15,200 nucleotides of DNA from Candidatus Poribacteria bacterium. GTDB taxonomy: Bacteria; Poribacteria; WGA-4E; WGA-3G. The DNA lies in the NCBI GenBank assembly GCA_009845505.1, contig VXZL01000452.1, forward strand, positions 1 to 15,200. Direction: 5' to 3'. The first letter of the stretch is position 1. Every line of letters starts with the position of its first letter. Shown here one piece after another: positions 1 to 7,906 of the stretch. A program made the position numbers and the translations under genes. The notes beneath the pieces were generated by a model. The model searched no databases and had not been told where the DNA came from. It worked only from the letters and a program-made list of their open reading frames with translations.

Positions 1-234
1 AGAATTGACATTATGATCGCAATCCGAAAATGTGTAACTATAGGTTTGTGTGCCGCTTCTGTTTGTTGTGAGAGTAATTGCGTCATTTATTTTGTTCGTT
101 TCCGTGGGCTGTCAGGAATCGATACGGAAATCTATTGTACAGAGTTCCTTTCGGTCGTCGGTTAAGAGATTATCTGCTTGATTTAAAAACCTCTTTAACT
201 GATAACTGACAACCGATAACCGATAACTATTCCG
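1..234. other. Non-coding left edge, downstream of the quinone oxidoreductase
   Basis: I see no convincing gene here on either strand. The stretch lies 3' of the minus-strand quinone oxidoreductase. It holds a heptanucleotide repeat array next to the stop codon (listed separately) and a weak inverted repeat, TTTCCGT at 99-105 with ACGGAAA at 124-130, with an 18-base loop. There is no hairpin followed by a T-run, so no clear intrinsic terminator is visible. Confidence 0.5.
192..233. repeat. Heptanucleotide repeat array at the 3' end of the quinone oxidoreductase
   Basis: Read on the plus strand, six consecutive 7-base units are in phase: TCTTTAA, CTGATAA, CTGACAA, CCGATAA, CCGATAA, CTATTCC. 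The array ends one base before the stop codon (TAG on the minus strand, 235-237). The last two units resemble the array at the gyrA stop: the 12-mer GATAACTATTCC occurs at 222-233 and again at 7895-7906. The unit type recalls STRR heptamers of filamentous cyanobacteria, but the sequence is different and the relation is only by analogy. Confidence 0.75.
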
Positions 235-1218
235 CTATCCTACTTTCAAAAGAATTTTACCAAAATTGCGATTCGCTTCCATATACTCGTGCGCCTGCCG
301 TGCCTCGGCGAGCGGAAAGACGGTATCAATAATCGGCTGTAGCGCGCCATGTTTCAATTCTGGCAACCATCGTTCAACGAAACGCTGTGTAATAGCAATC
401 TTTTCGTCAATGGATTGCGGTCTCATAACCGATCCGATAATCTGGAGTCGGTTGCGCATCACCGCGCCAAGATTAATTTCCGCGGTCGCCCCAGCGATCA
501 ATCCGACTTGCAGGAGTCTCCCCTTTGTTTTGAGGATAGAGAGGTTCCGCTCAAGGTACGGAGCACCAATAAAGTCTAAAACGACATCAACGCCCTGTCC
601 ATCGGTTAAACGTTGGATTTCGGCAACGAAGTCAGTTGTTTTGTAGTTGATCCCCTCTGTTGCGCCAAGTGCCTGGCATTTATCGATTTTTTCCGATGTT
701 CCGGCAGTGACAAAGACCGTGGCACCCGCATGCCGTGAAATCTGAATTCCGGTACTACCGACCCCGCTTCCACCGGCATGAATTAGGATTGTCTCACCTG
801 CTGATAATTTGCCCAACGTGAAGATATTTTCGTTTGCCGTAAAAAAGACTTCGGGAACTGCAGCGGCTTGTTCAAAACTCCACTCATCAGGTATAGGCAT
901 CGCCATGCGGTAATCAATAACAGCCTGTTCTGCATAGCCACCGCCTCCGACAAGCCCGAAGACTCGATCGCCTTTGGAAATCCCGTTCTCTACGGCAGCA
1001 CCTGCTTCTGAAACGGTACCCGCAATCTCCAGACCGAGTATTTCGGATTCACCAGGCGGTGGGGGATAGCCGCCTCGACGTTGAATCAGGTCGGCACGAT
1101 TCAAAGCAGTCGCATGCACATCCACCAAAAGTTGCGTTGCTGTTGGTCTGGGTGCTGGTGCTTCAGCCAATTGTAAGACTTCTGGTCCACCATCGCCGGT
1201 TCTGATAATTGCTTTCAT
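235..1218 (-). CDS. NAD(P)H quinone oxidoreductase, PIG3-like zinc-independent MDR family
   Basis: A medium-chain dehydrogenase/reductase that probably reduces quinones with NADPH in the cytoplasm. With the start chosen here the protein has 327 residues, usual for the family. Near residues 40-56 it has NRADLIQRRGGYPPPPG, a stretch typical of PIG3/TP53I3 and bacterial zinc-independent quinone reductases. The Rossmann nucleotide-binding motif AGGSGVG is at 148-154, and the C-terminal catalytic-domain strands are intact (EANRNFGKILLKV at the end). The cysteine and histidine ligands of zinc alcohol dehydrogenases are absent. An ATG exists 21 bases further upstream, but GGAG lies 8 bases before the ATG at 1218 (minus-strand GGAGAAAAAAGATG), which decides the start. 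It is divergent from the small plus-strand gene, with 244 bases between starts. The stop codon abuts a heptanucleotide repeat array. Family is confident; the physiological substrate is not known. Confidence 0.93.
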   Translation of the reverse strand: MKAIIRTGDGGPEVLQLAEAPAPRPTATQLLVDVHATALNRADLIQRRGGYPPPPGESEILGLEIAGTVSEAGAAVENGISKGDRVFGLVGGGGYAEQAVIDYRMAMPIPDEWSFEQAAAVPEVFFTANENIFTLGKLSAGETILIHAGGSGVGSTGIQISRHAGATVFVTAGTSEKIDKCQALGATEGINYKTTDFVAEIQRLTDGQGVDVVLDFIGAPYLERNLSILKTKGRLLQVGLIAGATAEINLGAVMRNRLQIIGSVMRPQSIDEKIAITQRFVERWLPELKHGALQPIIDTVFPLAEARQAHEYMEANRNFGKILLKVG

Positions 1219-1290
1219 CTTTTTTCTCCAATTCATCATGTTTGTCTTATTTCATATCGGTTTTCTTCAAAAAAAAACTGTTTCCGAAGT

Positions 1291-1350
1291 GTAGGTAGGA
1301 CCGGCGCACGGATATGTCGCGGCTCTGGTTGGTAGGTGCGCGGCGGGACT
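1291..1350. repeat. GC-rich imperfect repeat in the divergent intergenic region
   Basis: In otherwise A/T-rich spacer, a GC-rich patch holds CCGGCGCAC (1301-1309) and GTGCGCGG (1336-1343), which pair as 8 bp with one bulge. GGTAGGACCG (1294-1303) and GGTAGGTGCG (1331-1340) also look like degenerate direct copies. It could be a small dispersed repeat or the stem of a leader for the downstream plus-strand gene. A weak sigma70-like pair overlaps it (TTGGTA 1329-1334 and TATAGA 1353-1358, 18-bp spacer), with only four of six matches in each box. Confidence 0.35.
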
Positions 1351-6130: not shown

Positions 6131-7842
6131 CTGGCTTTGACAGCGTCGAGTTTTTGGCGGAGTTCTGCATTGTCTGGTTCGAGTCGTACGGCTTGTTCCA
6201 AAGTTTGCAATGCCTTTTCCTTTAAACCCTTCTGCAGATAGGCATCAGCAAGATGCAAAAGAATTTCGGGTGTATCAGGAAGATAACGAATTGCGAGTTC
6301 CAGATTTTCTATCGCAGCGTCCAATTTTCCCTGTTTGAAGTATATAAACCCTAAACTATCAAGATACGCACCAGACGTTGGTGAGCTTTTGAGTGCTCGA
6401 CGGACGAGTGCCGCAGCCTCGTCTAATTTGATACCTTGCTCAGCATAGAGGTAGCCCAACGCGTTGTAGGCATCTGGCAGTTCGCTTTTCGAGGACAATT
6501 CAATAGCCTTGCGAAGGTAATCTTCTGCGCGTTTCAGATCATCTAACATCTGATAAGCCATTCCGATCCCGGAAAGGGCTGGCACGTAGTTCGCATCGGT
6601 TTCCAGAATCTTTGCGAAAATGTTTATAGCCTTCCGCGGCACGTTGAATCTAAGATAGATCTGCCCAAGGGCGTGACGCATCTCTTGAAGCCGCATCGTC
6701 AGCGTAACCCGGTCAGCACTTCTAACACGACGTGTTCCGCCTCTCATCGAAGCCGCTCGTGCTTCTAATAGACTGATTGCGCGCATAATATGGAATTCGG
6801 ATTTCTCAAGGTCGTTCTGTTCTTGATAGGCGAGGCCAATACCGTAGTGTGCCTCAATTTCAGTCTCAGATGTATTCGCGGTTCGCGGTTCGCGGTTCGC
6901 GGTTCGCGGTTCAGCCGTTTGTGCTTCAAGTCGGGTCAGGATAGCGAGGAACGTTTTTATCGCCGCAGGATAGTCACCGGTCTGAAGGTAGAGCTGACCA
7001 AGGCGGTTCCGCGCACTCAACTGTTCTGGAAGGATAGTTACGACCCTTTCATAGGAGAGCAGTGCCTCTTCAAGCCGGTTTTGCATCTCATAGAGTTCAC
7101 CGAGTTCGGTGTGAAATTGATCGTCGAACGGCATAATTCGGGTCAGTGCCTTGAAGGATGTGATTGCGGTTTCGATTTCACCGAGATCACGTGCCATGGT
7201 GCCGAGATAGTAATGTGCCCTGTGGTGGTCTGGGTCCAGTTCAATGACCTGTTTTAAAACCGCGAGCATCTCCTCTTGTAACGCTTGGGTCCGGGTGTCG
7301 CGCCGATTTTCTTGGATAGATGCAAAGACTCTACGTGTTAGTATTTGGGCGAGGAGCCATGTTGCTGGCACACTCTCGGGGTTAAGCGCAATAGCTTTTC
7401 TGACATCGTCCCCTGCTCCTGGGATGTTTTGCAGTATATTAAATTGGAGTGTAGCACGTTCTGTGTAAATAAAGCTCAGGTCGTGCGAAGACACAAATTC
7501 AACTGAAGGAGCCGGAGATTCACCGTCAAGCCCAAACTCTTCTATGAGGACATCATAAGCGGCTTTGCTTTCACGAACGTTTCGTTCACTGGTTCCATTG
7601 TAGATTGCCCACATCACAGTGGCGTAGAAGTTAGCAGCGTCCCTCATTTCAGTATTTAATTCTGTATTGGCATCGGTGGGTGCCACTAACTCAGGTGTTT
7701 CAAACACACCTACCATCTCAGAATTCAACACGATGCTATCTATTGATGATGGTGAAACTTCCTTGTTCTGGGCTTGTAAGTTGTGTCCGAAGATGAAACA
7801 CGTCATCAGAACAAGGATTATGAGTATGTTGAGGTATCTCAT
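6124..7842 (-). CDS. Secreted TPR-repeat protein
   Basis: A 572-residue protein with an N-terminal signal peptide (residues 1-24, hydrophobic 5-18, likely cut near LQA) and many tetratricopeptide repeats. Clear TPR helices are at about 207-240, 241-274, 275-305, 334-364, 388-416, 420-450, 455-486, 490-520, 524-556, with the usual W/Y-LG-A-F/Y-A-P pattern. TPR arrays bind other proteins, so a periplasmic or surface scaffold is likely; the partner is unknown, although the neighbouring secreted peptidase is an obvious candidate. Two insertions interrupt the array: residues 310-324 (AEPRTANREPRTANT), made by a heptanucleotide repeat, and an Arg/Ala-rich loop at about 360-380. No Shine-Dalgarno is seen; the ATG follows an A-run. 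It starts 57 bases after the gyrA stop, across a hairpin. Confidence 0.9.
   Translation of the reverse strand: MRYLNILIILVLMTCFIFGHNLQAQNKEVSPSSIDSIVLNSEMVGVFETPELVAPTDANTELNTEMRDAANFYATVMWAIYNGTSERNVRESKAAYDVLIEEFGLDGESPAPSVEFVSSHDLSFIYTERATLQFNILQNIPGAGDDVRKAIALNPESVPATWLLAQILTRRVFASIQENRRDTRTQALQEEMLAVLKQVIELDPDHHRAHYYLGTMARDLGEIETAITSFKALTRIMPFDDQFHTELGELYEMQNRLEEALLSYERVVTILPEQLSARNRLGQLYLQTGDYPAAIKTFLAILTRLEAQTAEPRTANREPRTANTSETEIEAHYGIGLAYQEQNDLEKSEFHIMRAISLLEARAASMRGGTRRVRSADRVTLTMRLQEMRHALGQIYLRFNVPRKAINIFAKILETDANYVPALSGIGMAYQMLDDLKRAEDYLRKAIELSSKSELPDAYNALGYLYAEQGIKLDEAAALVRRALKSSPTSGAYLDSLGFIYFKQGKLDAAIENLELAIRYLPDTPEILLHLADAYLQKGLKEKALQTLEQAVRLEPDNAELRQKLDAVKASR
6716..6768. repeat. 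Direct repeat and palindrome in the TPR gene, encoding an Arg-rich loop
   Basis: GCACTTCTAA (6716-6725) and GTGCTTCTAA (6759-6768) are near-identical direct copies 43 bases apart. Between them is the perfect palindrome AACACG-a-CGTGTT (6724-6736). The segment encodes an Arg/Ala/Ser-rich stretch between two TPR helices, unlike the rest of the protein. It may be a second repeat-derived insertion, but the evidence is modest. Confidence 0.4.
6874..6915. repeat. Tandem GTTCGCG heptanucleotide array within the TPR coding sequence
   Basis: Six 7-base units in perfect phase: ATTCGCG, four exact GTTCGCG copies (6881-6908), then GTTCAGC. The 42 bases equal 14 codons; because 7 is not a multiple of 3 the peptide itself repeats every 7 residues (EPRTANR, residues 311-317, then again EPRTAN). 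Adding or losing one unit would change the reading frame of the downstream half of the protein. Confidence 0.9.
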
Positions 7843-7859
7843 TTTTTTAGGGTTGTCGG

Positions 7860-7906
7860 TTTTTCAGTTTCCAGTGTCTGGTAACTGAAAAACTGATAAC
7901 TATTCC
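7860..7906. repeat. Hairpin and heptanucleotide units between gyrA and the TPR gene
   Basis: TTTTTCAGTT-T-CCAG (7860-7874), loop TGT, CTGG-T-AACTGAAAAA (7878-7892) form a 14-bp stem with a single T-T mismatch. Heptamer units CTGGTAA, CTGAAAAA (8 bases), CTGATAA and CTATTCC overlap its right side and run into the gyrA stop codon (7900-7902). On the minus strand the stem is not followed by a T-run, so rho-independent termination is doubtful, but it could slow or partly end gyr transcription. It could also be two facing copies of the heptamer family. Confidence 0.6.

Follow-up and report, generated by a model that had tools for sequence, protein, structure and literature searches.

Why do degenerate arrays of 7-base units recur at gene edges in a 15,200-nucleotide stretch of Candidatus Poribacteria DNA (contig VXZL01000452.1, positions 1 to 15,200; hereafter the window), and what keeps their 7-base phase while the units drift? 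The window corresponds to contig C213 in a draft genome of 4.78 Mb, and the nearest GyrA relatives of its gyrA gene are from Candidatus Poribacteria (95% identity). A sequence-only reading had placed heptamer arrays at the stop codons of four minus-strand genes, with one constant orientation towards the gene, and had proposed that the period and not the sequence was selected or newly copied. Our analysis points to a different anatomy. The arrays are probably (we put this at about 0.6) the arms or arm remnants of a family of short intergenic inverted repeats, palindromes like the hairpin-forming doublets of repetitive extragenic palindromes (REP doublets, REPINs) or miniature inverted-repeat transposable elements (MITEs), with arms made of microsatellites. 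A puzzling link to stop codons thereby gives way to an anatomy that can be tested.

To obtain counts beyond the window, 120 contigs of the same genome were fetched, of which 84 were readable (less than half N). The main counts refer to 78 contigs (781 kb) and exclude the window contig and five contigs picked for a repeat match; these six do enter the wider pair counts, the unit-position correlation and the TAG counts given below. Arrays were detected with Tandem Repeats Finder (TRF) and with a detector of our own (threshold 8 for sites in the window, 10 for the period scan), and genes were called with a home-made open reading frame (ORF) caller, in which stops are surer than starts. The scan returned 40 intergenic arrays at period 7, compared with 0.2 in shuffled gaps and with 0–2 for each of the periods 4, 5, 6 and 8–13; the multiples 14 and 21 gave 22 and 6 arrays. 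The 7-base period is therefore real and is retained although the units differ. A single cyclic matrix with the consensus unit TYAKYRG (e.g., TTATCGG or TCAGCAG) oriented all 59 intergenic arrays, on which it had been trained, and scored at least 8 in 54 of them, so that the proposal of a period without a sequence did not hold up.

Oriented in this way, the arrays tended to form inverted pairs, which the sequence-only reading had overlooked. Neighbouring arrays in one gap were arranged as (+,−) in 8 cases and as (+,+) in one; in three broader sets, which were in part selected and still contained duplicates, the arrangements were 71 (+,−), 2 (−,+), 4 (+,+) and 8 (−,−). Of the sets used here and below, the genus loci include own-genome loci (L213/L214–L237) found by a two-armed query and are biased towards pairs, and the gyrA loci contain orthologous copies. 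Orientation followed the gap and not, as had been claimed, the gene: + arrays lay at the left edge 26 times and at the right edge 3 times, − arrays 5 times left and 18 times right (Fisher 6.8e-7). Partner segments on the inner side of an array scored 12.5 on average in opposite orientation, 6.4 in the same orientation and 5.9 after shuffling. An inner partner scoring at least 8 was present in opposite orientation for 29 of the 52 arrays and in the same orientation for 9, and 36 arrays beat their own shuffles. Gaps with arrays also had a higher hairpin potential (median folding z −2.70, n = 41) than gaps without (−0.92, n = 90; p = 1.7e-5). The core AAGAG stood immediately inside 12 of the 52 arrays, about a quarter, and immediately outside only one (p = 0.002), while random 18-mers from gaps contained it in 370 of 20,000 cases; longer copies of the element also carry TGTAACAAT plus its inverted copy. 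The excess of inverted pairs agrees with one trait of MITEs (under 500 bp), a short non-coding centre flanked by terminal inverted repeats, though 23 of the 52 arrays had no partner scoring 8.

Within the window, element C (7851–7900) is an almost perfect hairpin in the gap between gyrA and a tetratricopeptide (TPR) gene. Its + arm (7851–7874) and − arm (7878–7900) enclose a loop at 7875–7877 and score 10.1/9.9, and 7843–7899 folds with z = −6.87. Elements A and B are longer. Element A (149–228), 3' of the ADH gene, has a + arm at 149–164 and a − arm at 196–228, with TTAAGAG and CTCTTTAAC inside (z = −2.96 for 135–240). Element B (4264–4342) lies between a gene without Pfam match (4392–6074) and the BNR gene; its + arm (4264–4282) and − arm (4311–4342) score 15.6/14.5 when read on the gene strand, and the folds reach z = −3.89 (4262–4342) and −4.47 (4178–4391). 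A lone − arm at 6102–6130 lies across the stop codon of the TPR gene (6124–6126, minus strand) and has no partner in its gap (scores 7.3/5.2, z = −0.20). An Rfam search of the window returned no matches at E up to 1.

The four sites of the sequence-only reading were recovered in part. TRF reported period-7 arrays at 196–228, 4264–4282, 4369–4387 and 6102–6132; the supposed array at 7878–7906 was found neither by TRF nor by our detector at threshold 8, and 7878–7900 is a short stretch, CTGGTAACTGAAAAACTGATAAC, evident only as half of a hairpin. The array assigned to the stop codon of the minus-strand ADH gene (235–237) ends at about 228, six bases before it. A constant orientation relative to the gene fails at 4264–4390, which breaks into three or more segments of mixed orientation: 4264–4282 (+), 4311–4342 (−) and 4348–4387 (+). 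The opposite arms at 149–164 and 7851–7874 had been missed, and the latter adjoins a start codon, that of the TPR gene at 7842. A unit was also said to supply the stop codon in two genes; this applies to 6124–6126, within the array, and partly to the TAG of gyrA (7900–7902), whose G is taken from the arm, as the opening base of element C, and whose TA comes from the flank. With nine of the ten main genes on the minus strand, a pair in the window will tend to have a stop facing one of its arms.

Comparison with relatives revealed presence and absence of whole elements at orthologous gaps. Element C is missing from the gyrA–TPR gap of the related locus L128, where GGAGGAATAG continues to the next start, and the gyrB–gyrA gap holds an element with two arms (about 206 bp) in L128 but is empty in the window and in L129. 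Empty sites of this kind in relatives are another trait of MITEs. A scan for empty sites among the gyrA loci found an array in 11 of 90 merged insertions, few of them clean. Around gyrA, a test for arm pairs was passed by 7/29, 1/15, 2/29 and 6/29 orthologs at four gaps and by 0/27, 0/23 and 0/28 at three. The value of 2/29 refers to the gap orthologous to the lone arm at 6102–6130; L128 shows arm-like sequence at both ends there by eye, and both L128 and L129 fail the test.

The gap between two SufB/D-family genes (sufB–sufD, Pfam SUFBD_core on both sides) is occupied far more regularly. Out of 29 loci tried, 15 relatives were readable, and an arm pair was recognised by eye in locus L106 and in 12 of these 15; L327, L328 and L341 were excluded by eye from the arm test. 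When right arms were reverse-complemented, the left outer arm matched its own partner better than those of other species (p = 0.0001, n = 13), also after near-copies had been dropped (p = 0.0001, n = 10), and both sides share unit types such as TTATAAG in L330 and a CTATCGG type in L340 and L343. All 13 copies fold at −30 to −63 kcal/mol, values obtained without a shuffle control. Over the set of elements, the two arms also correlated at the unit's G/T position (r = 0.43, p = 0.0002, n = 83).

The co-change at sufB–sufD and the G/T correlation count in favour of the inverted-repeat family. The results at this gap also speak for its main rival, namely putative RNA hairpins selected between neighbouring genes, in which the stem would process or stabilise the mRNA and the arm sequence would be free to drift if pairing is kept. 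It suits this explanation that the G/T position, where a change breaks pairing, correlates between arms, whereas transition positions, which wobble pairing could tolerate, do so weakly or not at all. The arm match at sufB–sufD could, however, also stem from a lineage-wide shift of unit type. Elsewhere the elements are sporadic: to the low counts around gyrA, including three gaps in which none of 23–28 orthologs passed, comes the gap at 10821–10871 of L106, with an arm pair by eye in 1 of 15 relatives. Arrays of the family occurred in 43 of 420 gaps (tandem 34/325, convergent 6/44, divergent 3/51), and the differences between gap types, divergent gaps among them, were not significant. As a general account we consider conserved hairpin function possible but unlikely; it may hold for old copies.

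Change within the species was followed in the genome G055, nine pieces of which were aligned (about 88 kb, some of it overlapping, 91.5–99.7% identity). Four indels, each of 7 or 14 bp, fell within heptamer arrays or arms, so that length changes here by whole units. The remaining indels of at least 4 bp measured 15, 19, 31, 77, 84, 124, 260 and 837 bp; the 19-bp one reflects an N run, those of 124 and 837 bp coincide with joins or ends of pieces, and those of 77 and 84 bp are divisible by 7 but do not fall in arrays. Such changes, together with the many arrays without detectable partner or core, are what plain microsatellites would produce through polymerase slippage with a 7-base bias and without any element, and slippage of heptamers was proposed by Mrazek and colleagues (as cited in the part of PMC4679880 available to us). 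Plain slippage does not predict the excess of inverted pairs, the orientation by gap edge, the AAGAG core on the inner side only, or the presence and absence of two-armed units, and we regard it as improbable.

To return to the stop codons, 26 of the 52 arrays had a stop as their closest gene edge and the other 26 a start. Equal frequency at start codons was the outcome that the sequence-only reading had itself named as speaking against its proposal, and stop-codon placement is rejected by this count. Arrays on the stop side were nevertheless closer to the gene (median 3 nt, 16/26 within 5 nt) than those on the start side (median 22 nt, 4/26 within 5 and 6/26 within 10 nt; p = 0.003). Since the two edges are used equally and stop-side arrays are nearer, the earlier observation caught a real closeness to stops where an array adjoins one, not a preference for them. 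Stops abutted by an arm were enriched in TAG in the own genome (27/43 vs. 219/730 overall, p = 7e-6, in a set that includes the window and the five repeat-picked contigs), more weakly so in the genus loci (21/62 vs. 62/279, p = 0.016) and not in the gyrA loci (7/19 vs. 128/358); some outer flanks of arms read TAGTAG. Signals for termination or processing at 3' ends, as suggested earlier, would fit the stop-side arms a few nucleotides from the stop and the TAG enrichment in the own genome, but with equal start and stop edges and no significant enrichment in convergent gaps (6/44, p = 0.43) they are very improbable.

How, then, might a family of inverted repeats give rise to the arrays? An element of about 50–220 bp would open with (TYAKYRG)n, followed in part of the copies by a core (for instance TTAAGAGG and TGTAACAAT), then by a centre that varies and by the mirror image of the first half, and the whole could fold into one hairpin. 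Elements would be mobile palindromes of the non-autonomous kind that originate through insertion, after which strand slippage would add and remove units. The period would survive the drift of the units because only changes of 7n leave both arms paired and in register, which offers a reason for a 7-base period that outlasts its sequence. Arms would stand at gene edges because the element occupies much of a short gap. On the start side space is needed for the ribosome-binding site, and on the stop side an arm could enter the gene and supply its TAG.

Several results weigh against this explanation. Apart from the 23 arrays without partner, a segment scoring 8 also occurred in 75 of 259 array-free gaps (21 of them score 12); the threshold is lenient, and single partner calls are thus weak evidence. 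The AAGAG core is lacking beside 40 of the 52 arrays, and a GTAACAA-like inner motif (the TGTAACAAT class) was not significantly enriched (inside 6, outside 3 of 52). In the window, a further + array at 4348–4387, in the gap of element B and beside the stop at 4392, is an exception to the edge rule. A TA target-site duplication fits one of the two empty sites and fails on the right side at the second, and outer flanks gave no clean signal. No gain or loss of a whole element was seen in the aligned parts of G055; the region 7224–7351 of L106, where G055 is several kb longer, lies outside the alignment. Concerning co-change, a second gap of the suf region gave p = 0.066 (n = 6), and of the five unit positions one was clear, one pyrimidine position weak (r = 0.26, p = 0.013) and three were uncorrelated. 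Whole-arm similarity within elements reached significance neither in the own genome (p = 0.16) nor in the sets of genus loci (0.15) and gyrA loci (0.07), and trimming the inner 8 bases did not change this (0.49, 0.68 and 0.18, respectively), so that the case for co-changing arms stands on sufB–sufD and one of five unit positions. A transposase partner was not found, the five loci with a Y1_Tnp match carrying no such arrays, which gives no link to REP-associated tyrosine transposases (RAYTs). Nor did the sample and the gyrA loci contain an autonomous relative; of five stretches bracketed by arrays, one held a gene without Pfam match and one gyrA, and three were not searched.

The Y1 loci have features of their own. 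The best Y1_Tnp match, L208 (G000:C4:3518-3853), contains one in-frame TAG stop. At two of the five loci, palindromes with a GTAG foot lie beside the match: GTAGGTGCGGTT..AACCGCACC, GTAGTAGGGCAAT..ATTGCCC and GTAGTAGTGCGAT..ATCGCAC (L209:1264-2092; L212:1284-1343 and 2047). In L209, three of them precede the match in one orientation and three follow it in the other. These palindromes are likely REP/RAYT systems.

The family is abundant in one genus. A three-unit pattern matched in all 38 genomes of the genus, with 2–59 matches each (reversed control 0–3), and elsewhere in the phylum in 6 of 46 genomes, with 1–6 matches (the control reached 5 in one genome). Beyond the genus, TTAAGAG follows some of the arrays (L241–L243), so the element either predates the genus or was transferred. 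A query of arm plus core matched at 44 genomic positions, but many of these are just arms. With 38 related genomes, four of which (G079, G081, G082 and G083) consist of a single contig, gain, loss and co-change of arms can be measured.

Cyanobacterial short tandemly repeated repetitive (STRR) sequences are degenerate heptamer tandem repeats between genes, and the Poribacteria arrays may resemble them in this general respect. Known bacterial heptamers, to which the sequence-only reading had pointed, are the right neighbourhood for comparison, and no paper on such elements in Poribacteria was among the matches listed. In the available part of MacGregor (2015, PMC4679880), the TAACTGA heptamers of Beggiatoaceae, Cyanobacteria and Bacteroidetes are mostly direct repeats just upstream of start codons, with one inverted repeat noted. 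As far as that text goes, the likeness is close: the unit is the same (reverse-complementing TAACTGA gives a rotation of TTATCAG), the repeats are intergenic and interrupted by related units, and indels between two close strains are mostly of 7 nt, as here. Tandem heptamers of TAACTGA type indeed stand between genes in Poribacteria (window 196–228; matrix of 59 arrays). In BOGUAY, however, the TAACTGA repeats mostly lie within a few nucleotides upstream of starts in one orientation (same excerpt), unlike the inverted pairs found here, with their equal use of both edges and their wider start-side spacing.

Among 31 TAACTGA arrays from 30 viral-contig loci, several of them near-identical, none had an inner opposite partner scoring 12 and one had an outer one, which weighs against a universal rule. 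Two viral contigs (L287:3248-3423, L296:3029-3197) carry TAACTGA-type arrays of about 24–25 units without inverted partner. A megablast search for TAACTGA in plasmids returned no match, and the low-complexity filter may mask matches.

The G-rich heptamers of Xanthomonas and Nostoc, GGGAATC or GGGGA(C/T)T, are interpreted as G-quadruplex formers in the available part of PMC4692102. According to the same part, they lie on the sense strand near a stop or on the antisense strand upstream of an ORF, a geometric rule shared with the Poribacteria arrays; one inverted pair is pictured there as an example, and systematic pairing is not described in it. This common edge rule suggests that hairpin arms may underlie arrays usually taken as simple repeats or G-quadruplexes. 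More broadly, the heptamer arrays of Poribacteria, Xanthomonas, Nostoc and Beggiatoaceae might all derive, as arms or as what is left of them, from "slipping palindromes", whose complementarity and 7-base register would be kept by slippage and by copying from arm to arm, some being kept for long as RNA hairpins (sufB–sufD); we consider this generalisation speculative and rather unlikely. Like REP doublets, REPINs and bacterial MITEs, as these are described in the available parts of PMC3733652, PMC10969869 and PMC4853749, the Poribacteria elements are small, multicopy, intergenic, palindromic and present or absent between relatives. Unlike them, they have heptamer microsatellites of varying length as arms, and no linked transposase was found. 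The elements may thus act as REPINs or MITEs do, but we do not assign them to either class, since no consistent target-site duplication and no mobiliser were found.

A few further features were observed. Small palindromes (CGGATT..AATCC, GGTTGCTACGCAACC) occur inside or beside heptamer arms at L135:9859-9988, L128:9754-9971 and L085:740-980, perhaps through repeated insertion into arms. The genes of the window are, in order, ADH, HepT-like, an ORF without Pfam match (2068–2841), BNR/sortilin-like, the gene without Pfam match with its stop at 4392, TPR, gyrA (7900–10434, minus strand), gyrB, dciA and recF-like. The HepT-like gene (PF01934, 1463–1939) lies on the plus strand amid minus-strand genes. 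Finally, a perfect TTCGCGG array of 5.4 units (6875–6912, +) stands within the TPR coding sequence and forms no two-armed element; it is translated as a REPRTAN repeat of the TPR protein, and like arrays are found at several places in the same-species genome.

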